Below, piece by piece: positions 47,057 to 59,332 of a DNA stretch of 64,000 nucleotides. The DNA lies in the NCBI RefSeq assembly GCF_000526375.1, contig NZ_JAFY01000007.1, positions 124,001 to 188,000 on the forward strand, written 5' to 3'. Each line of letters begins with the position of its first letter. Within the stretch, counting starts at the first letter, position 1. The position numbers and the translations under genes are program-made. Below the pieces are notes generated by a model that searched no databases, had not been told where the DNA came from, and saw nothing but the letters and a program-made list of their open reading frames with translations. The stretch is from Aminiphilus circumscriptus DSM 16581 (GTDB taxonomy: Bacteria; Synergistota; Synergistia; Synergistales; Aminiphilaceae).

Positions 47057-48811
47057 ATGAAGAACACCACCAGGTCGCTCTACCTTCGACTTCTCGCCTA
47101 TGCAAGGCCCTATGGACGGCGTATCGGCGCCGCCGTGGCGTGCATGGTTCTTGCCTCTCTCTTCGGCGTGGTGCCGCCCTGGCTTCTCAAGAATGTGGTG
47201 GACGACGTGCTCATCGGGCGCCACACGGGGACGCTCAATCTCCTCAGCGTGGGTATCGTTCTGCTCTATTTCGGGAAGGCCGTGTTTGCCTATGGACAGC
47301 GTTATCTCATGACCTGGGTGGGGCAGCGGGTCATTCTGGATATTCGAGTGCTCCTCTACGACCACATTCAGCGCATGTCCCTCTCCTACATTCACGGAAA
47401 ACGAGTGGGAGAGCTGCTCTCACGCATCACCAACGACGTGAATGTGCTCCAGGACATGGTCACCTCCGTGGTGGTGGATCTCGTTGTCCAGGGGGTCACC
47501 TTTCTGGGTATGCTCGGTTTTCTCCTCTATATCAACTGGCGATTGACCCTGGTGGCCTTCGCGATTCTTCCCGTGGCGGCCCTTGTGATCGAACGGACAT
47601 CGAAATATCTGCGCAAAGTGGGGCACGAGGTGCAGGAGCAGCTTGCCCGGGTGGCTGCCATCGCCCAGGAAGCGCTCTCCAGCCTGCGCATCGTCCATTC
47701 CTTCGTTACCGAGGAGGAGGAGCTGCGACGGTTCCGCCTGCAGAATCAGGCGAATTTCAGCGCTCTCATGCGGGGAACCCAGGTCTTTGCCGTACTCGAC
47801 GGTGCCGTGGAGGTCGTGCTCGTGACGGCCCTGGCGTTCATCCTCTGGCTTGGAGGGCGGGATGTCATCTCCGGCGAACTCACCCCGGGAGAACTCATCG
47901 CTTTTCTCGGTTATCTCGGATTCATGGTGCAGCCCATCCGCATTCTCACCCGGTTGGTGAGTCGCATTCAGCAGGCTCTCGCCGCGACGGAGCGCATCTT
48001 CGAGATTCTGGACAAGCCGGCGGAGATCGCCTCTCCGCCGGGAGCGATCGTTCCGGAGCGTCTCCGGGGCGAGGTGCGCTTCGAGAACGTCCATTTCGCC
48101 TACGAGTCGGGGCAGTGGATTCTACGGGGCATCGATTTCCATGTGAACCCCGGGGAGATGATCGCCCTGGTGGGACCGACCGGGGGCGGCAAGACAACCC
48201 TGTCGGATCTGATCCCCCGTTTCTACGATCCCCAAAGGGGGCGCGTGCTTGTGGACGGCGAGGACGTGCGACGACTGCATCTTCCGTCCCTGCGGAGACA
48301 GATCGGCATCGTCCCCCAGGATCCGGTGTTGCTGAAGGGAAGCATCGCCTTCAACATCGGCTACGGCTGTCCCGAGGCGGATTCAGAGCGTCTCTGCGCC
48401 GCCGCCCGCATCGCGGGCATCCACGAGTTCATCGTCTCCCTTCCGCAGGGATACGACACGGAGGTGGGCGAACGGGGGGTCCTTCTCAGCGGAGGACAGC
48501 GCCAGCGCATCGCCATCGCCCGGGCCGTCGTTCGGGACCCGCGCATCCTCATTCTGGACGAGGCCACCTCCTCTCTGGACTCGGAGGTGGAACATCTCAT
48601 TCAGGAAGCGCTCTCCGGGGCGATGAAAGGGCGTACGTCCCTGGTCATCGCGCACCGCCTTTCCACGGTGGTGCGCGCCGACAGGATCCTCGTCCTCGTG
48701 GACGGACGCATCGTGGAGGAAGGTTCTCACGAGACGCTGCTGCGGCGGGACGGGGCCTACGCGAAGCTCTTTGCGCTTCAGTTCGGAGGAGGCAATGGGT
48801 CGGCTTCTTGA
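47057..48811 (+). CDS. msbA: ABC transporter, MsbA-like lipid A flippase
   Basis: A 584-residue half-transporter: six membrane helices (about 20-300) then an ATPase with Walker A GPTGGGKTTLSDLIPRF, Q-loop IVPQDPVLLKGSIAFNI, signature LLSGGQRQRIAIARA, Walker B RILILDEATSSLD and H-loop IAHRLSTV. Location between lpxB-type genes and lpxK indicates the MsbA role. The AT-rich leader (about 47018-47056, including AAAGGAG) stands out in this GC-rich region. Overlaps lpxK by 17 bases. Confidence 0.9.
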   Translation: MKNTTRSLYLRLLAYARPYGRRIGAAVACMVLASLFGVVPPWLLKNVVDDVLIGRHTGTLNLLSVGIVLLYFGKAVFAYGQRYLMTWVGQRVILDIRVLLYDHIQRMSLSYIHGKRVGELLSRITNDVNVLQDMVTSVVVDLVVQGVTFLGMLGFLLYINWRLTLVAFAILPVAALVIERTSKYLRKVGHEVQEQLARVAAIAQEALSSLRIVHSFVTEEEELRRFRLQNQANFSALMRGTQVFAVLDGAVEVVLVTALAFILWLGGRDVISGELTPGELIAFLGYLGFMVQPIRILTRLVSRIQQALAATERIFEILDKPAEIASPPGAIVPERLRGEVRFENVHFAYESGQWILRGIDFHVNPGEMIALVGPTGGGKTTLSDLIPRFYDPQRGRVLVDGEDVRRLHLPSLRRQIGIVPQDPVLLKGSIAFNIGYGCPEADSERLCAAARIAGIHEFIVSLPQGYDTEVGERGVLLSGGQRQRIAIARAVVRDPRILILDEATSSLDSEVEHLIQEALSGAMKGRTSLVIAHRLSTVVRADRILVLVDGRIVEEGSHETLLRRDGAYAKLFALQFGGGNGSAS

Positions 48812-51164
48812 GAGCTTTCTCACCTTCGCCAGAGGTGAGCGTCCAGGAGGATTGTGGACTCTCCTCGCCCCCCTCGGAGGCATTGCCTCCATGGGAACGT
48901 GGTGCCGTAACTTCTGCTACGACCACGGCCTCTTCGCCCAATGGGAGATGCCACTCCCGGTGATCAGCGTGGGAAATCTCACCCTGGGCGGAACGAACAA
49001 AACGCCCTTCGTGGCGGCCATCACGGAAACACTCCTCGCGGCGGAACTCGCGCCGGGCATCGTGAGCCGGGGATACGGCGGATCCGCCCGGGGTGTCGTG
49101 CTGGTTCAGGGCGGGAAGGGGGAGCGGAGTGAGGTGGGGGACGAACCGCTGCTCCTCTCGAAAATGCTCCCCACCGTTCCGGTGGCGGTGGCCACCGATA
49201 AGATTCGGGGTGTGACCGCCCTTCGCGAGCGGGGATGCCGCATCGTCGTCGCGGATGACGCTTTTCAGCACCGGCGCATGGGAAGGGATGCGGACATCGT
49301 CCTCATCGATGCCACCTGTCCCTTCGGCAACGGAAGGCATTTTCCTGCGGGGATCCTTCGGGAACATCTGCAGGCTCTGGAGCGGGCCTCCCTCGTGGTC
49401 ATCACCAAGGCGGATCAGATTTCGCAAGAAATTCTGGAACCCCTCGAAGAGGGGCTGGAAAAGGTTGTTCCGCGGAAACGGCTCTTTCGGTCCAGCATCG
49501 TCCTTAAGGAATGGTTTCGCTTCGACGAGGGAGAGTGGCGGCGTTCCTCCGAGCCTCCGTGCCGACGACGCGCCTTTGCCTTTTCCGCCATAGGCAGCCC
49601 CAGAAGCTTCATCCACGTTCTCGAAGAACTCGGGATAAAACTTGTAGGGACGTGCTCGTTTCGGGATCATCACCATTACACGGCGGAGGATCTGGCGGCG
49701 GTGGAGGCGAGGACGGGTGAGCGTGGCGCGGAGATTCTCATCTGTACCGAGAAGGACACGTACAATCTTCCCGCAGGGTACGTTCCATCTCTGCCGCTCT
49801 GGTATCCCCGGGTGGGGACCGTGATCGAGAATCCCCTCCGCTTCTGGCAGGCATTGAAGGAGATTCTTCGCCCCAAAATCATCGTCGCCTCCAACGGCTA
49901 CGGTGAGGATGCCATTGGGGCATTGCTGGCCGCACGGCTTCGGGAACGTTTCCCCGGAGCGGCGGTGTCCGCTTTCGCCCTTGTGGGACACGGCGCCGCG
50001 TACCTGAAACAGGACATTCCCGTGTGTTCGCCTCCGGTGGAGACGCCGAGCGGCGGCATTGTCAAGTACAGCTGGAGGGAGTTCGCGAGGGACCTCCGCG
50101 GGGGTCTCCTCACCCATATTGGAAGACAACTTCGGAGATGGGGACATCTGCGGGGACGTATCCGCTCCGTTCTCTGCGTCGGCGATGTCTATCTTCTTCT
50201 GCAGGTTCTTGCCGGGCAGGGACAGGTTCCTCTCCTCCTCGCCACGGCCAAGAGCGTTCATCTCGGGGGGCACTGGAGAATCGAGAGATTCCTTCTCCGT
50301 TATCGCGCCCGGAGAGTCTGGACCAGAGACGAGGCGACACTGGAGCAGCTCCTCCGCTCCCGCGTCGCCGCCACCTACGGCGGAAATCCCATCATGGATC
50401 TCGTCGAGGAGAACATCCTCGGAGAACAGAACGGGACGCGCTTTTTCCCAAAGGCGAAGGATGACGGGGTCTCCGCGGCGAAACCCCATCTCCTGGAAGG
50501 GGCGTCGCAATGGATTCTTCTACTTCCCGGGAGTCGTCTTCGGGCCTACGAGGACGTGGCGTTGCTCCTGGCCACGGCGGAATGTCTCGGAGAGCGCTGT
50601 GTTGCAAAAAGAGACACCGCCGTGCCCCGGTTTCTTCTCGTCGTGGCGCCCACACTGGAATCTCCCCGTCTGGTTGCCGAGGCGACGCGGCGGGGATGGG
50701 CCGAACGGAGAATTTTCCGGCGCGGAAGAAACGTCCTCGTCTTGGAGAAGGAAAAGTCCTGGGGTAGGCTTTCGGTGGAGCTTTCCGACGAGTCCGTGGC
50801 GAAGGTTGCCTCCGGAGCCCGTCTCGTCATCGGTCTCGGCGGCACGGCGAACCAGATCTGCGCGGGGCTCGGCGTCCCCGTCGTCTCCATTCTGGAGAAG
50901 GGGAAGCTCGTTCAGAAGAAACTGCTTCGGGACGCGGAAGTTCTTGTCCCCCCCTCACCGGAGGATCTTTCGGAGGCGGCGGAGCGCATCCTCGAGGACG
51001 CAACGCTTCATGCCGCCATGAGTGACGCGGGAAGACGGGCCATGGGGCGCCCCGGAGCACTTGGCGATGTGGAGACCTATGCGGCGGAGTGTCTCGGCTG
51101 GGCTCTCCGACACGATGTCTACAAAGAGCTGTGCGCGTTTCTCGCGAAGGAGGAACTGAAGTGA
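48795..51164 (+). CDS. lpxK: Tetraacyldisaccharide 4'-kinase LpxK fused to an LpxB-related domain
   Basis: A 789-residue protein. Residues 1-355 are LpxK: GTWCRNFCYDHGLF, the P-loop region ISVGNLTLGGTNKTPFV, GIVSRGYGG, DEPLLLSKMLP, VVADDAFQHRRMGRD and ICTEKDTYNL. The usual GGxGKT reads GGTNKT, with Asn for Gly before Lys. Residues 356-789 are a second enzyme-like domain starting KIIVASNGYGEDAIGALLA, with FALVGHGAAYL, VLCVGDVYLLL, ATYGGNPIMD, LLLPGSRLRAYED and LVIGLGGTANQICAGLG, which resembles the lipid-A-disaccharide synthase-related family of cyanobacteria and Deinococcus (TIGR03492 as I recall). One frame with no stop joins both. Confidence 0.88.
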   Translation: MGRLLESFLTFARGERPGGLWTLLAPLGGIASMGTWCRNFCYDHGLFAQWEMPLPVISVGNLTLGGTNKTPFVAAITETLLAAELAPGIVSRGYGGSARGVVLVQGGKGERSEVGDEPLLLSKMLPTVPVAVATDKIRGVTALRERGCRIVVADDAFQHRRMGRDADIVLIDATCPFGNGRHFPAGILREHLQALERASLVVITKADQISQEILEPLEEGLEKVVPRKRLFRSSIVLKEWFRFDEGEWRRSSEPPCRRRAFAFSAIGSPRSFIHVLEELGIKLVGTCSFRDHHHYTAEDLAAVEARTGERGAEILICTEKDTYNLPAGYVPSLPLWYPRVGTVIENPLRFWQALKEILRPKIIVASNGYGEDAIGALLAARLRERFPGAAVSAFALVGHGAAYLKQDIPVCSPPVETPSGGIVKYSWREFARDLRGGLLTHIGRQLRRWGHLRGRIRSVLCVGDVYLLLQVLAGQGQVPLLLATAKSVHLGGHWRIERFLLRYRARRVWTRDEATLEQLLRSRVAATYGGNPIMDLVEENILGEQNGTRFFPKAKDDGVSAAKPHLLEGASQWILLLPGSRLRAYEDVALLLATAECLGERCVAKRDTAVPRFLLVVAPTLESPRLVAEATRRGWAERRIFRRGRNVLVLEKEKSWGRLSVELSDESVAKVASGARLVIGLGGTANQICAGLGVPVVSILEKGKLVQKKLLRDAEVLVPPSPEDLSEAAERILEDATLHAAMSDAGRRAMGRPGALGDVETYAAECLGWALRHDVYKELCAFLAKEELK

Positions 51165-51967
51165 AGACACTGGCTGTCATTCCCGCCCGGTACGCGAGTA
51201 CTCGTCTTCCGGGCAAACCTCTCGTCGTGGTGGGAGGAATTCCTCTCGTCGTGCGTGTTTTTCGGGGGCTCGCCTCCTGTCGTCGGGTGGATCGGGTCGT
51301 CGTCGCCGTGGACGACGACCGTGTCGCCAAGGTGGTCCGTGACGCCGGGGGCGAGGCTGTCTTTACCCCCCCGGACCTGCCCAGCGGCGGTGACCGGGTG
51401 GCCTACGTGGCGGAGCGGGAACCCTCCTTCGATCTGGTGGTGAACGTCCAGGTGGATGATCCCCTCGTGGGCCCGGATATGGTGGATCCTCTCGTGGACA
51501 TTCTCTCGGAGGACCCTTCCTGCGATGTGGCCTTGTTGGTTCGAGCCATCGAGGACCGAAAAGAGGTGAACGATCCGGGCGTGGTGAAGGTGGTGCTCGA
51601 CCTTCAGGGGCGTCCCCTCTATTTCAGCCGTTCTCCCATTCCCTATCCGAGAAACGAGGGAGGGCGCTGGTTCAAGCATATCGGTCCCTACGCCTACCGC
51701 AGGGATTTCCTGCTGGCCTTCGCCGGATGGGAACCCACTCCCCTGGAGAGGACGGAGAGTCTGGAAATGCTCCGCATGCTCGAGCGCGGGCACAAGATTC
51801 GCGCCGTCGCCGCTCCCAGGGATACCGTGGAGATCGACACCCCCGAGGACGTGGCGGCCTGCGAGACCTGGTTCGACCGTTTCGGTGACGTCCCGTGGGA
51901 AACCCCGTGGAACAAGGGAAAGAGCGATGGCTCCTCCGGCTACGCATGCGGCGGATGTTCGAACTAG
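51161..51967 (+). CDS. kdsB: 3-deoxy-manno-octulosonate cytidylyltransferase KdsB (possibly 8-amino-Kdo type)
   Basis: A 268-residue nucleotidyltransferase with [16 protein letters not shown], the core [17 protein letters not shown] (usual form NVQGDEP), [24 protein letters not shown] and [10 protein letters not shown]. It activates Kdo as CMP-Kdo. The altered acidic motif (GDE to VDD) and the nearby dehydrogenase/aminotransferase pair suggest it may accept Kdo8N. GTG start coupled to lpxK (GTGA). The C-terminus has an unusual Gly/Cys/Ser-rich tail. Confidence 0.9.
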
Positions 51968-51987
51968 ACGGAGAGGAGCGGAAACAC

Positions 51988-52857
51988 ATGGTACGTACAG
52001 TACGCGTCGGTTCCGTCGAGATCGGTTCGGGGAAGCTCGCGATCCTCGCAGGTCCCTGCGTCCTCGAGAGTTACAATCTCGCCCTTTCCGTGGCGGAGAC
52101 GGTCCGGGACATCTGTGCTCGTCTTGACCTGGGCTATATCTTCAAGGCCTCCTTCGACAAGGCGAACCGGACGTCTGGCGCAGGATTTCGTGGCCCCGGC
52201 ATCGAGGAGGGGCTTGCCATGCTCGGCAAAATCCGGGAGATGGCGGGTGTTCCCGTGTTGACGGACATCCACGAGCCTTGGCACGCAGCAATCGCCGCGG
52301 AAACGGTGGATCTGCTCCAGATCCCCGCCTTTCTCTGCAGACAGACCGATCTCGTGATGGCCGCCGCGAGGACGGGAAAACCCGTGAACATCAAGAAAGC
52401 CCAGTTTCTCGCCCCGGAGGACATGGCCGCCGTGGTGGGCAAGTGCGCCGAAACGGGCAACGAAAACCTGCTTCTCTGCGAACGGGGAACCACCTTCGGC
52501 TATCGCAATCTCGTGGTGGACATGCGCTCGCTTGCGGTGATGCGAACCCTCGGCTATCCTCTCGTCTTCGATGCGACCCACAGCGTGCAGATGCCGGGAG
52601 GACAGGGTACCTCCAGCGGCGGCGACCGGCGTTTCGTGCTTCCCCTTGCCCGGGCGGCGGCGGCGGTAGGAATCGATGCCCTCTTTCTGGAGACGCACCC
52701 CGACCCGGACAAAGCACTGAGCGACGGTCCCAACATGATCGCCCTGGCGGACCTAGAGGCGCTTCTCCGACAGGTCAAGGCGGTGTTCGACACGAGCCGG
52801 CAGCTCGGTTTCGTGGGACTTCCGTCTGCGGGAACGCCCTTCGGGGGGCGTGAATGA
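51988..52857 (+). CDS. kdsA: 3-deoxy-D-manno-octulosonic acid 8-phosphate synthase KdsA
   Basis: A 289-residue TIM-barrel aldolase: [81 protein letters not shown] and [12 protein letters not shown]. It condenses arabinose 5-phosphate and phosphoenolpyruvate. Cys at AGPCVLE marks the metal-dependent form. ATG 51988 follows GGAGAGGAG; coupled to kdsD by ATGA. Confidence 0.95.
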
Positions 52858-53897
52858 TGCGGGAAGCGGAGACCAGGGTGCAGGAGGAGGCGTGCACGTT
52901 GCCGAGGGAACGGCGTGGTCCGGACCTCTCCGGAGAGGAGCTTCTCGCCGTGGGGCGTGGCGTGCTGCGCCGCGAGGCGGAGGAGCTGCTGCGTGCGAGC
53001 GAGCGCGTGAGTGAAGAACTTGTCCGTGCGGCCCGCCTCATTCATGCCTGCACGGGGCGGCTCGTCGTGACGGGACTGGGCAAATCGGGACTGGTGGGAC
53101 GAAAGATCGCCTCCACCTTTGCCTCTCTAGGAACGCCCGCTCTCTTTCTCCATGCCGCCGAGGGAGCCCACGGGGATCTCGGCATGGTCTGCCGGGACGA
53201 CGTGGGGCTTTTCTTGAGCAACAGCGGCGAAACCCGGGAAGTGCTCGAACTGCTCCCCTATTTCCGGCGCCTCGGCGCTCCCGTGATCGCCATGACCGGA
53301 GTCGCCTCGTCCAGATTGGGAGAGGGTGCGGACATCCGGATCGATTCGGGGGTTCTCCGCGAGGCGGACCCCCTTGGACTGGCTCCCACGAGCAGCACGA
53401 CGCTCCAGCTGGCCCTGGGGGATGCCCTTGCGGGCATGGTGACGGAACTGCGTGGTCTCAGACAGGAGGATTTCGCCCTCTTTCATCCCGGCGGAAGCTT
53501 GGGAAAGCGGCTTCTGCTCCGGGTGTGCGATGTCATGGCGGGAGGCGACAAACTGCCCGTCGTGTCCGAGGACACGCCCGTTCGGGAGGCCCTTTTCGAG
53601 ATCACGAGCAAAGGCTATGGTGCTACCTGCGTGGTTTCCTCCCGGAAAACCCTTTCGGGCATCTTCACCGACGGAGATCTCCGCCGGCTTGTGGAGCGGC
53701 GGGGGCTTCAGGCGATGGAGCTTCCCATCGGCGCGGTCATGACGAAATCGCCCCGGACGATCTCTCCCCAGAAACTCGCCGCCGAAGCAGTGTTGCTCAT
53801 GGAGCGGAGCGAGGTCTCCGTTCTCGTGGTCGTCTCCGAGGAGTGTCCCGTGGGCGTGGTGCACCTTCACGACCTGCTCAAGGCGGGCATTGCCTGA
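52854..53897 (+). CDS. kdsD: Arabinose-5-phosphate isomerase KdsD (KpsF/GutQ family)
   Basis: A 347-residue protein with an N-terminal SIS domain ([60 protein letters not shown]) and two C-terminal CBS domains (about 215-345; [11 protein letters not shown]). It supplies arabinose 5-phosphate to KdsA, encoded just upstream. Confidence 0.93.
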
Positions 53898-53904
53898 AAC
53901 GGAC

Positions 53905-55236
53905 ATGGCGCGTCGGGAGGAGCGGATTGCCGCGACGGGAGGAGAATGGAAAAATCGGGCGTTGCTCGCTGCGTACCGAGGATGTCTTTCCCTGGCGTAT
54001 GCGGCGGGATTTCCCTATCTTGCGCGGCGGTACCGCGAGGGGCTTGCGGAGCGCCGGGGCTTTCTCCCCGAACCGCTGTGTCGTCTGGGAACGGAGCGTC
54101 CTCTCTGGATTCATGCCGTTTCCGTCGGAGAGGTGCAGGCTGCGTCCCCTTTCATCGCGGCAGCGCGAGAGAGCGGTTTTTCCGCGCCTCTCGTGCTTTC
54201 CACAACGACTCCCACGGGGAGAACCATGGCGGAACGTCTTGTCGGCCCTGCGGCGGACGCACTCTTCTACTATCCCTGGGATGTGCCGCGCATTGTCCGG
54301 CGTGCTGTGTCCGCGCTGCGACCGAGGGGTTATGTGGCCATGGAAACGGAGGTGTGGCCGGAACTGCTTGGACAGCTCGACGAAAGGGGGATTCCGCTCT
54401 TTCTCGTGAACGGACGTCTTTCGGAACGCACCTTCCGAAAGGCCTTGCGGTGGCGTTCGTTTTGGAGTATGTTGCTCAACCGGTTCACGCTGCTGCTCTT
54501 TCGGGAGGAGGAGGACGGAGAGAAGGCGCGTTTCCTGGGAGTGGATCCCGAACGGATTCATGTTGTGGGCGATGCCAAGGTGGAAGCGCTCCTTCGGAGA
54601 CGGGACAAAGGGCCCTTCTCCCTTCCCTCCGCGCCGCCGCCGGGAGGTCCCGTTTTTGTCGCGGGAAGTACTCACGAAGGCGAAGAGGAGATTGTGCTCG
54701 ACGCGTTTCGCCGGGTGCGGAGGATTCTGTCCGATGCCAGGCTCGTGCTCGTGCCTCGCCATCCCGAGAGAGCGGAGGCGATCCTGACGCTTCTGAGGAC
54801 CCGAAACGAAGAGAGAGGAGAGGCGCTGAAAAGCGAGCGTCTTTCCCAATGTGACCTTTCCGCTTCCTGGACTATACTGGTGGTGGATCGCGTGGGTGTT
54901 CTTTTCGAGGTCTACCGCTGGGGGCGAAGTGCCTTCGTGGGAGGGAGTCTTGTGCCCAGGGGAGGACAGAACCTGCTGGAACCCGCCGCATGGGGCGTTC
55001 CGGTGCAGCACGGCCCCTTTGTGGAGGATTTTGCCGCCGCAGCGGAAAAGCTTGGGCGGCTGGGGATGGCGCAGACGGTCCGGAACGCGGAGGAACTCGC
55101 CGCGGCGTGGACAGGGTGTGGTGGACCCGGGGCGGAAAAGCGACGGAGCGACTTGTGCCGCGCTTTTTTCGACGAGGAAGGGCACGCCGCGTCGAGGGCG
55201 TGGAAACTTGTCTCGGAGCGGCTCGTGTCGGAATGA
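53905..55236 (+). CDS. waaA: Kdo transferase WaaA (KdtA)
   Basis: A 443-residue GT30 transferase: PLWIHAVSVGEVQAASPFI, STTTPTGRTMAERL, YYPWDVPRIVRRAV, YVAMETEVWPELLGQL, LVNGRLSERTFRK, VFVAGSTHEGEEEIVLDAF and FVGGSLVPRGGQNLLEPAAWG. It transfers Kdo (or Kdo8N) to lipid A precursors. ATG 53905 is chosen over TTG 53890, which overlaps kdsD. Confidence 0.92.
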   Translation: MARREERIAATGGEWKNRALLAAYRGCLSLAYAAGFPYLARRYREGLAERRGFLPEPLCRLGTERPLWIHAVSVGEVQAASPFIAAARESGFSAPLVLSTTTPTGRTMAERLVGPAADALFYYPWDVPRIVRRAVSALRPRGYVAMETEVWPELLGQLDERGIPLFLVNGRLSERTFRKALRWRSFWSMLLNRFTLLLFREEEDGEKARFLGVDPERIHVVGDAKVEALLRRRDKGPFSLPSAPPPGGPVFVAGSTHEGEEEIVLDAFRRVRRILSDARLVLVPRHPERAEAILTLLRTRNEERGEALKSERLSQCDLSASWTILVVDRVGVLFEVYRWGRSAFVGGSLVPRGGQNLLEPAAWGVPVQHGPFVEDFAAAAEKLGRLGMAQTVRNAEELAAAWTGCGGPGAEKRRSDLCRAFFDEEGHAASRAWKLVSERLVSE

Positions 55237-55297
55237 AACGGAACGAAGAAGTGTTTTGCGTCTGTGGCAACGACGAGGACGATTCAGGAGGGGCACG

Positions 55298-56518
55298 GTG
55301 GTCGAAGGTGTTCCCTCTCATGACGAGGTGATGGAAGTGCAGTGTGGAGGGGCAACAAAGAGTTTTGCCATGTCTCTGGCGGGAAAGGCCCAATTCGGGC
55401 CGGGCGTTTCGAGGAATGTGGGAGAGATCGCGCGAAAACTGGGTGTTTCAAGTGCCGTGCTGGTGACGGATGCCACGATGGAACAGCTCGGCATGGCGGA
55501 GCGTATTTCCGGATATCTCCACGATGCCGGGGTGGAATGCTGTATTTTTGCCGGGGTCGAACCCGAACCCTCGGTGGAAACCACCGATGCCGTGGCAGAA
55601 CTGGCCAGGGAGCACGACTGTCGTCTCGTGGTCGGACTTGGCGGAGGAAGCTGTATGGATGTGGCCAAGGCGGTGAGCGTGCTCATCACCAACATGGGAT
55701 CTGCGGCACAGTACCAGGGGCTCGGACTCGTGCCCAACAAGGGCGTTCCCAAGATCATGATTCCCACCACGGCAGGGACGGGATCGGAGGTCACCTTCAC
55801 GGCGGTGCTCATCCGCAAGAGCGATGGTGTCAAGGGAGGCATCAACGACGAGAAACTTTTTCCCGACTTCAGTCTTCTCGATCCCGAGCTGACGCTTTCC
55901 ATGCCTCCCTGCGTGACCGCCACCACGGGAATGGATGCCCTGACGCATGCGCTTGAGGCCTATACCGGACGAAACGCCTCACCGTTCAGCGATCTCCTGG
56001 CCGAGGCGGCCCTTGCCCGCATCGGCAGATTCCTCCGGGTGGCCACGTGGAACGGCCATGACCTGGAGGCCCGGAGCGAAATGCTCCTTGCTTCCTATTA
56101 TGCGGGAGGGGCTCTCGCGAACGCTGGCGTTGGCGCCTGTCACGCCCTGGCCTATCCTCTGGGGGGCATGTTCGGCGTGGGGCACGGCATGGCGAACGCA
56201 CTGCTCATTCCCTACGTCGCCCGGTACAACGCGCTCTCCCGTCCCGAAAAATACGCGGCTGCGGCGGCCTTCCTCGATGCTGGGGCGGAGGAGCTGCCTC
56301 TGCGGGACCAGGCCCTTGCCTGCGCGGACGTTCTGGACGAATTCGTGGCCGATCTCGAATTACCGAGCACCCTCAAGGCACTGAAGGCGGGCATCACGGC
56401 GGAACACTTCCCCGAAATGGCCGAAAAGGCCATGGGCGTGGCCCGTCCGATGGAGAACAACCCGCGGCCCATGACCAAGGAGAGCTGCGTGGCACTGTAC
56501 AAGGAGGCGATGGAGTAA
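55298..56518 (+). CDS. kdnB: Iron-type dehydrogenase, probable Kdo 8-dehydrogenase KdnB
   Basis: A 406-residue group III alcohol dehydrogenase. The NAD site appears as VVGLGGGSCMDVAKAVSVLI; IPTTAGTGSEVTFTAVL follows; metal ligands are Asp and His in GMDALTHALEAYTG, His in GACHALAYPLGGMFG and His in GVGHGMANALLIPYV, all present. GTG 55298, after AGGAGGGG, is chosen. Many substrates are possible for this family, but the gene lies right after kdsBAD-waaA and overlaps an aminotransferase like KdnA, as in Shewanella, where KdnB oxidises Kdo at C8 before amination. The function is therefore inferred from context. Confidence 0.78.
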   Translation: MVEGVPSHDEVMEVQCGGATKSFAMSLAGKAQFGPGVSRNVGEIARKLGVSSAVLVTDATMEQLGMAERISGYLHDAGVECCIFAGVEPEPSVETTDAVAELAREHDCRLVVGLGGGSCMDVAKAVSVLITNMGSAAQYQGLGLVPNKGVPKIMIPTTAGTGSEVTFTAVLIRKSDGVKGGINDEKLFPDFSLLDPELTLSMPPCVTATTGMDALTHALEAYTGRNASPFSDLLAEAALARIGRFLRVATWNGHDLEARSEMLLASYYAGGALANAGVGACHALAYPLGGMFGVGHGMANALLIPYVARYNALSRPEKYAAAAAFLDAGAEELPLRDQALACADVLDEFVADLELPSTLKALKAGITAEHFPEMAEKAMGVARPMENNPRPMTKESCVALYKEAME

Positions 56519-57726
56519 TGCCTGGCTTCGAACTGTTCGACCAGAGAGAGATCGACGCCGTCGCGGACGTGATCAACCGCAAGATGGTGCACCGCTATTC
56601 GTTCGTGAACTGCCGGGACGAGATCTACAAGGTGGAGGAATTCGAGAACGCCGTGGCGGAGAAGGTGGGGGCGAAACATTGCCTTGCCGTGTCCAACGGC
56701 ACCGCCTCCCTCTATGTGGCCCTCAAGGCCTGCGGAATCAATCCCGGGGACGAGATCATCACCACGCCCTTCACCTTCATCGCCAGTGTCGAGGCCATTC
56801 TCGAGTGCGGCGCAGTGCCTGTCCTCGCCGAGATCGACGAGAGCCTCAACCTCGACCCCACCGTGGTGGAGGAGTTCATCACCGACCGGACCCGGGCCAT
56901 CATGCCCGTGCACATGTTCGGCGGTGCCGCGGACATGGAGGCCTTCAGGACCATCACCCGGGAAAACGGACTCGCCCTCTTCGAGGACAGTTGCCAGGCC
57001 ATGGGCGCCACCTACGGGGGCAGGTGGTGCGGAACCTGCGGCAGCACGTGGGGAACCTACAGCCTCGACCCCTACAAGGTGCTCACCGTGGGTGAGGGCG
57101 GCCTCATCGTCACCGACGACGAGGACCTCTATCGGAAGATGGAATACTACCACGACCACGGTCACAAACATGACAAGACCATCGATCGGGGCGCGGAGAA
57201 GAAGGCCTGTCTGGGGTTCAACTTCCGCATGAGCGAAATACAGGGCGCCCTCGGCCTCGTGCAGCTCTCGAAGCTCGATGGCGCTGTCGAGGCGTTGCGG
57301 AAAAACCGGACTCGCGTGCTCGACGCGGTGGGAAACGTGCACGGTCTGGCGGTACGGCGCAGTGCAGATCCCGAGGGTGAACTCGCCACGCAGCTCGTGT
57401 TCCTGCTGCCCACTCCCCAGACGGCCCGCCGTTTCCAGAAGGCCGCGAAAGAGGCTGGCATGGGATGCGGCATTCTCGAGGACAACACGTGGCACTATGC
57501 CCGCCACTGGGACACGTTGCGGGACGGTGCGACCTACAGCCGCATCCGTTGTCCCTACGACTGCCCTCTCACGGAAAGCATGCCCCTCTATCGCCCCAAC
57601 GAATGGCCCCAGACCCAGGAAATTCTCAGCCGGGCCGCGGTCTTCGGCATCGACATCGTCATGTCCGACGAGAAGATCGAGAGCATGGCCAAGGCTATCG
57701 CCGCCGGAGCCCGGGCGGCCCTGTAG
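56518..57726 (+). CDS. kdnA: DegT/DnrJ/EryC1-type aminotransferase, probable 8-amino-Kdo synthase KdnA
   Basis: A 402-residue PLP enzyme beginning MPGFELFDQREIDAVADVI, with AVSNGTASLYVALKACGI, TPFTFIASVEAILECGAVP, EDSCQAMGATYGG and the PLP-lysine motif YSLDPYKVLTVGEGGLIV, then GFNFRMSEIQGALGLVQLSK. The start and layout closely resemble Shewanella KdnA as I remember it, which makes 8-amino-3,8-dideoxy-manno-octulosonate. It overlaps kdnB by one base. Alternative: another sugar aminotransferase of the family. Confidence 0.8.
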   Translation: MPGFELFDQREIDAVADVINRKMVHRYSFVNCRDEIYKVEEFENAVAEKVGAKHCLAVSNGTASLYVALKACGINPGDEIITTPFTFIASVEAILECGAVPVLAEIDESLNLDPTVVEEFITDRTRAIMPVHMFGGAADMEAFRTITRENGLALFEDSCQAMGATYGGRWCGTCGSTWGTYSLDPYKVLTVGEGGLIVTDDEDLYRKMEYYHDHGHKHDKTIDRGAEKKACLGFNFRMSEIQGALGLVQLSKLDGAVEALRKNRTRVLDAVGNVHGLAVRRSADPEGELATQLVFLLPTPQTARRFQKAAKEAGMGCGILEDNTWHYARHWDTLRDGATYSRIRCPYDCPLTESMPLYRPNEWPQTQEILSRAAVFGIDIVMSDEKIESMAKAIAAGARAAL

Positions 57727-57811: not shown

Positions 57812-59332
57812 ATGAGACACGCCCTCGATGCGATCGTCCTCCTCAGCGACGGCATACGCGGACACCTTCACCAGAGCCGGGGTGTCGCCCACTGGCTTTC
57901 CGGTGCGGCGGGAGTTCCCGTCTTCGAGATGGAAGTCCCTCGTTTTTCAGGGGTGCGTCGCCTCTGGATCCTCAAGATAGCCCCGCACTTTTTCGCATGG
58001 AGGCGAACGCCCGAGGCTCGGAGGAAGAGCGCCTGCGCCTGGCTTCATCTCGCCGGCCGTTTTGCGGAAAGAGACCTCTTTCCCGCGGAACTTCTGGAGG
58101 CGGTTCGCCGCCACCTGAAAGAAGGCGGTGGAGAGTCCTTTTTGGGGGCAATCGCGCCGAACGAAGACGAAAACAAAATGGACGTGAAAGACGGCGACGG
58201 AGTTGTGACATCCCTGCCGCCCCCGGCGGAACGACCGGTGAAGCGCATTCTCTTCCTTTCCGCCGGAAGCGCCGCGGCGCCTTTTTGCCTTGCCCTGGCC
58301 CGGAGCTGTGAGGGCTTTTTCCCCGGTGTTGAGGGAGTGTCCTGTACGCTCATGACGCCCTCGGGGCTTGGTATTGCCCCCTTCGATGCGGCTCTCGTCC
58401 CCGAACACGATCTTTCGGGTGTCCCCACCCGATTCGGTGCACGCGGAAACGCCCCGGAGGGAAAGCACGGCCCCTTTCTTTGCGTCACCCTCGGCGCTCC
58501 CAACGCGATCGTCCCGGAAAACCTGGAGACGGCGTCGGAGGAGCTTCTGCGCCGTTTTCCGCCGAGCGTTCCGGAATCGCCACGCTGGGGGATCCTTCTT
58601 GGCGGTGACGACGGCAACTACAGGGTGTCCGCCTCATGGGTTCGAGATACCCTGGGCGCTCTTTTCGAACGTGCCCGCCGGGAGAACGCGACGCTGTACG
58701 TCACCACCTCCCGCCGCACCTCCCCCGAAGCGGAGAATGCGCTGACCCAGCTTGCGGAAGCATACGCGCCAACGGTCTCCATGCTCCTCCTCGCGTCGAA
58801 AGATCCCTGGAACCCCGTTCCGGGCATGCTCGGCGCGGCGCAGCGCGTCTTCTGCACGGAGGATTCGGTCTCCATGGTCTCCGAAGCGGTCACGGCGGGG
58901 CATCGGGTCGTTCTTCTCCGGGTGGAGCGACGGAAGAGCCTCGTCGCCTTTCTGAACGGACTCCGAAATCTCCTGGCCCGGGCCGGTTGGGGCGTCTCTT
59001 TGGCGGGGCCAGCCCGATTCGATGCGTTGTTTCGGCGCATGGAGGAAGCAAAGCTGCTCATGGTCTTTCCCTCCGCGACGGATGCCCGGGAGGCTTTTTG
59101 GCGGGCAGACACTTCCGAAGGCCGGCTTCGAACGACTTTTTGCCCGGAGTGCAAGGAGTTCACCTCGAAGGAAGAACGAAGCGGGGACTTCAACGAGGCC
59201 CGTCGTGCGGCGGAGCTTCTGCTCGCGTACCTCGCGGGAAAGGAAGAAAAACGACGGCTCCTGAGCTGCGATGCCTCCAGGGGTGTGCACACTGCGTTTT
59301 CGTCCGCGTTTCGGAGGAGGTCCGATCTTTGA
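57812..59332 (+). CDS. ELM1-like GT-B family protein
   Basis: A 506-residue protein resembling the bacterial mitochondrial fission ELM1 family (PF06258): start VLLSDGIRGHLHQSRGVAHW, then VTLGAPNAIVPENL, WGILLGGDDGNYRVSASWV, LYVTTSRRTSPEAE and FCTEDSVSMVSEAVTAGHRV. The fold is GT-B-like and members often sit in LPS loci, presumably as glycosyltransferases; activity is not established. The ATG at 57812 has only a weak ribosome binding site. Confidence 0.7.
   Translation: MRHALDAIVLLSDGIRGHLHQSRGVAHWLSGAAGVPVFEMEVPRFSGVRRLWILKIAPHFFAWRRTPEARRKSACAWLHLAGRFAERDLFPAELLEAVRRHLKEGGGESFLGAIAPNEDENKMDVKDGDGVVTSLPPPAERPVKRILFLSAGSAAAPFCLALARSCEGFFPGVEGVSCTLMTPSGLGIAPFDAALVPEHDLSGVPTRFGARGNAPEGKHGPFLCVTLGAPNAIVPENLETASEELLRRFPPSVPESPRWGILLGGDDGNYRVSASWVRDTLGALFERARRENATLYVTTSRRTSPEAENALTQLAEAYAPTVSMLLLASKDPWNPVPGMLGAAQRVFCTEDSVSMVSEAVTAGHRVVLLRVERRKSLVAFLNGLRNLLARAGWGVSLAGPARFDALFRRMEEAKLLMVFPSATDAREAFWRADTSEGRLRTTFCPECKEFTSKEERSGDFNEARRAAELLLAYLAGKEEKRRLLSCDASRGVHTAFSSAFRRRSDL

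Follow-up and report, generated by a model that had tools for sequence, protein, structure and literature searches.

The window is the whole stretch of 64,000 nucleotides of Aminiphilus circumscriptus DSM 16581 that was analysed here. It contains a run of genes for the synthesis and transfer of Kdo, followed by an iron-type dehydrogenase and a DegT-family aminotransferase:

48798..51164, + strand: lpxK carrying a fused lipid-A-disaccharide-synthase-related domain; first gene of the conserved block
51161..51967, + strand: kdsB, CMP-Kdo synthetase (TIGR00466)
51961..52857 (start approximate), + strand: kdsA, Kdo-8-phosphate synthase (PF00793 only; the KdsA name comes from context)
52854..53897, + strand: kdsD, arabinose 5-phosphate isomerase type (SIS + CBS)
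53890..55236, + strand: waaA, Kdo transferase (PF04413)
55286..55291, + strand: Shine-Dalgarno sequence AGGAGG of the dehydrogenase gene, read directly from the sequence
55298..56518, + strand: iron-type alcohol dehydrogenase predicted to fill the KdnB role as a Kdo 8-dehydrogenase; not a KdnB ortholog
56518..57726, + strand: DegT/PLP aminotransferase of the KdnA family, predicted to convert 8-oxo-Kdo to Kdo8N (402 aa, PF01041)
57812-59332, directly after KdnA: ELM1-family protein (PF06258)

The dehydrogenase frame begins 61 bp after the end of waaA with a GTG start at 55298, preceded by a good Shine-Dalgarno sequence, and stops at 56518; its N- and C-terminal Pfam Fe-ADH domains are both complete, and its stop overlaps the KdnA start by one base (TAATG). 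An earlier note on this DNA had described a complete iron-type dehydrogenase overlapping a DegT aminotransferase, the two lying directly behind kdsB-kdsA-kdsD-waaA, and the frames, domains, overlap and gene order all agree with that description. Glycosyltransferases are also found downstream of KdnA, together with the ELM1-family protein. The C-terminal domain of the lpxK fusion scores 182 bits against TIGR03492, under the cut-off of 219, and other Synergistota lpxK frames give high-scoring matches to it. The gene order itself is not a product of chance: lpxK-kdsB-kdsA-kdsD-waaA-FeADH-KdnA, or a short kdsB-FeADH-KdnA version, is seen again in almost every other Synergistota genome that has the same type of KdnA (type A, below), the exceptions being contig ends and one genome (G105) in which KdnA has no adjacent dehydrogenase.

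The aminotransferase is the more readily placed member of the pair. Among solved structures, it matches Shewanella oneidensis KdnA (5k8b, 8-amino-3,8-dideoxy-D-manno-octulosonate transaminase) end to end at 302 bits, the next family reaching 176. A Foldseek search with its predicted model (mean pLDDT 80) also returns 5k8b first, at 1.3e-37, with the next entry about nine orders of magnitude behind (8.8e-29). In a tree of 72 rows the KdnA family forms one group (support 99, starred) apart from other DegT enzymes, and the window's aminotransferase falls in this group with the Shewanella enzyme, in agreement with the earlier note. The catalytic Lys187 is retained, and five residues (E92, D184, H216, H218 and N323) occur in 53/53 members of the family and are mostly missing outside it. 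By sequence, predicted fold, family-specific residues and phylogeny the aminotransferase is thus a KdnA, with a predicted activity to match. The Shewanella and A. circumscriptus proteins also share kdsB as a neighbour; they differ in that they are only about 40% identical and that the latter is part of a distinct lineage within Synergistota, comprising types A and B.

Could the pair instead act on, say, a Kdo derivative and yield another 8-amino or otherwise modified ulosonic acid, or an amino sugar? The breadth of the DegT and iron dehydrogenase families allows for this, as does the modest identity to Shewanella KdnA. Set against it are the linkage to kdsB, kdsA, kdsD and waaA, rather than to nucleotide-sugar genes, and the retention of the KdnA-specific residues, and we consider a different product unlikely.

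The dehydrogenase has a less direct relationship to its Shewanella counterpart. Shewanella KdnB (PDB 5k8c; 3rf7) is a Kdo 8-oxidase of the FeADH3 / cd08184 group (PMC5125639). It resembles the window's enzyme in superfamily, metal ligands, active-site set (EDTGN[LI]VY) and adjoining KdnA and kds genes, but the two are only about 30% identical and belong to different clades. The window's enzyme scores 266 bits against methanol dehydrogenase and 118 bits, over partial length, against KdnB. Methanol dehydrogenase likewise ranks first in a fold search with the predicted model (mean pLDDT 92), and the 50 best fold matches do not include 5k8c. A tree of 76 rows unites KdnB with the KdnB-type enzymes of Synergistota in a clade (support 100, starred) that has a long branch and leaves out the window's dehydrogenase. 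The KdnB assignment implied by the earlier note therefore fails, and orthology is rejected: the enzyme is nearer to methanol and 1,3-propanediol dehydrogenases in both sequence and predicted fold. These relatives, Bacillus methanolicus methanol dehydrogenase (8zrl) and the 1,3-propanediol dehydrogenase DhaT (3bfj), are NAD-dependent enzymes that share its metal site but differ at all eight of the signature positions described below (NAFAVFLH and NRHVVFLH).

It could still be argued that the locus encodes an ordinary Shewanella-type KdnA-KdnB pair, with the dehydrogenase a highly divergent KdnB ortholog that retains KdnB cofactor chemistry. In the same tree a single branch (support 94, not starred) separates all KdnA-partner dehydrogenases from 31 others, and one active-site set is common to all of these partners. 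However, the starred KdnB clade leaves out the window group, the sequence and fold rankings point elsewhere, and one genome (G123) has a window-type pair and, away from KdnA, a separate KdnB-type gene (L228:8477-9757) about 43% identical to Shewanella KdnB. These observations make a divergent ortholog rather unlikely, and favor a distinct dehydrogenase lineage in the KdnB role.

The active site indicates what the two lineages have in common. With the Met codon at 55331 taken as residue 1, the metal ligands D202, H206, H271 and H285 (a group III site of Asp and three His) and the GGGS dinucleotide motif are intact in the window's dehydrogenase. Eight further positions, E79, D86, T157, G170, N172, L262, V267 and Y275, correspond to N71, K78, N151, V164, V166, F254, L259 and H267 of FucO (published numbering). 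The set reads EDTGNLVY in A. circumscriptus, EDTGNIVY in Shewanella KdnB and EDIGN(S/T)VY in the Synergistota KdnB-type enzymes, one row of which has N in second place. Four of the eight positions lie in the known active site of FucO and the other four were found by contrasting partners with non-partners; of the former, 259 and 267 also surfaced in the contrast and 151 and 254 come from the literature alone. A full match occurs in 0/43 other iron dehydrogenases, a count that is partly circular since several positions were chosen for discriminating partners; an Fe-ADH from a Priestia plasmid shares 5/8. Four genes (L290, L291, L292 and L294) from genomes outside the selection set match the signature as well.

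In FucO, N151 and L259 govern the width of the pocket and the ring of F254 touches a bulky ligand (PMC10324492); these three positions were chosen on the strength of that work. At FucO positions 151, 254, 259 and 267 the window's enzyme has Thr, Leu, Val and Tyr, and KdnB has Thr, Ile or Leu, Val and Tyr; Phe254 and His267 predominate in generic iron dehydrogenases, where Leu259 is also frequent. The pocket residues of methanol and 1,3-propanediol dehydrogenases (Phe 254, Leu 259, His 267) are thus absent from the window's enzyme, with L, V and Y in their place. As judged from its residues, the dehydrogenase has a KdnB-type active site. Tyr275 was considered as a diagnostic on its own, being present in 45/45 partners and 0/13 other enzymes at first; wider sampling found it in 5/43 non-partner enzymes, and the diagnosis therefore relies on the eight positions in combination.

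Across the phylum, KdnA is found in 93/188 Synergistota genomes. It occurs with a partner dehydrogenase in 86 genomes and alone in 7, the partner occurs alone in 4, and 91 have neither (Fisher p 2e-39, a value that takes no account of shared ancestry). Several of the seven genomes in which no partner was detected at the thresholds used are incomplete or break off where a contig ends. Four types of KdnA can be defined by sequence and neighbours. Type A (35 genomes) includes A. circumscriptus and is paired with the window-type dehydrogenase of its lineage; type B (26 genomes) usually occurs as kdsB-KdnB-type-KdnA; type C (27 genomes) usually occurs as kdsB-KdnA, the KdnB-type enzyme being encoded either alongside or at another site; and type D (5 genomes) lies outside the order of A. 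circumscriptus, its dehydrogenases about 44% identical to the one in the window. The window-type and KdnB-type sets, each defined by its own search, do not overlap.

The nearest characterised relatives of the window-type enzyme, methanol and 1,3-propanediol dehydrogenases, would be consistent with an alcohol dehydrogenase of general fermentation whose position beside KdnA is incidental. This reading is highly improbable: the enzyme tracks KdnA across Synergistota, has the KdnB-type active-site set, and sits in the slot that KdnB-type enzymes occupy in sister lineages. A genome from the same family as A. circumscriptus (G019) also argues against it. Here the kds-waaA-dehydrogenase order is kept and no match to KdnA was recovered. 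The dehydrogenase next to waaA (L227:9443-10693, 49% identical) lacks metal ligands: GMDALTH has changed to GMSALAN, and the second motif is missing its first His.

A further indication that the window-type enzyme acts in the same pathway as KdnB comes from the exchange of partners. A single KdnA clade (support 100, starred) comprises types A and B, yet A is accompanied by the window-type dehydrogenase, and B, like C, by the KdnB type. Grouping type B with type C is rejected (p 9e-47), as is grouping all KdnB-partnered KdnAs (p 0.012). Type B emerged from within type A in the initial KdnA tree. An AU test leaves a single A clade unrejected (p 0.64), so that the claim is limited to A and B together forming a clade. 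A second case is found in Desulfobacterota and relatives, where one KdnA clade (support 100, starred) has window-type partners in three genomes (G188-G190) and KdnB in a fourth (G191, Desulfobulbus alkaliphilus). Because the two dehydrogenases stand in for each other next to the same kind of aminotransferase and the kds genes, they most likely carry out the same step.

Together, these results make it very probable that the two genes form a Kdo8N branch, in which a non-KdnB dehydrogenase and KdnA are predicted to convert Kdo to its 8-amino form. We infer the substrate, the cofactor, the order of steps and the presence of Kdo8N in the LPS. Free Kdo would be oxidized at its C8 alcohol by the iron-type dehydrogenase, most likely with NAD+ as cofactor, and KdnA would convert the resulting 8-aldehyde to 8-amino-3,8-dideoxy-octulosonate, probably with glutamate as donor. 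KdsB would then form CMP-Kdo8N and WaaA would transfer Kdo8N to lipid A. The kdsB product is the only protein of the genome above the TIGR00466 cut-off, so it is KdsB that would have to activate Kdo8N. The earlier note had proposed the same branch with KdnB itself as the oxidizing enzyme; the identity of KdnA, the kds/waaA linkage, the KdnB active-site set and the exchange with KdnB-type enzymes uphold the branch, and the KdnB orthology has to be given up.

Why should one oxidation be served by two dehydrogenases? The distinct lineage to which the window's enzyme belongs is probably NAD-dependent, as its relatives and intact dinucleotide motif imply. KdnB has been reported (Gattis 2013) to work independently of NAD(P) and to use oxygen; if this holds, the window type would be the form suited to strict anaerobes. 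KdnB-type enzymes are also found in Synergistota, so oxygen is not the whole explanation. A broader model, in which Kdo8N synthesis is widespread in the anaerobic Synergistota and several other phyla, two separate iron dehydrogenase lineages are interchangeable through one shared active-site solution, and the A. circumscriptus lineage is NAD-linked and frees the pathway from oxygen, has in our view about an even chance of being correct.

Kdo8N has been named a hallmark of Shewanella (PMC6357163), and no report of it outside that genus was found in the open-access literature, which likewise yielded no biochemistry or LPS analysis for A. circumscriptus. KdnA-KdnB pairs occur in Bacteroidota, Desulfobacterota and Sulfurivirga (L084, L086-L089, L092, L102, L104, L110 and L112), some of them with kdsA, kdsB or waaA, and the predicted Kdo8N genes are therefore not confined to Shewanella. 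The pathway is already known; what is new is its distribution and the alternative dehydrogenase. If the predictions are correct, an amino-Kdo inner core would be common in a whole anaerobic phylum and present in Bacteroidota and Desulfobacterota as well, altering the net charge of the inner core in these bacteria. The pathway would also offer a clean test case of one sugar oxidation served by two dehydrogenase lineages, with candidate residues already named.

A search of plasmids recovered KdnA-like aminotransferases of up to 38% identity only, the best of which has no Kdo genes nearby. On a Roseibium plasmid, a KdnA-like aminotransferase (L240:4989-6212, 38%) lies among phytanoyl-CoA dioxygenase and radical SAM genes, which suggests an unrelated biosynthetic cluster.
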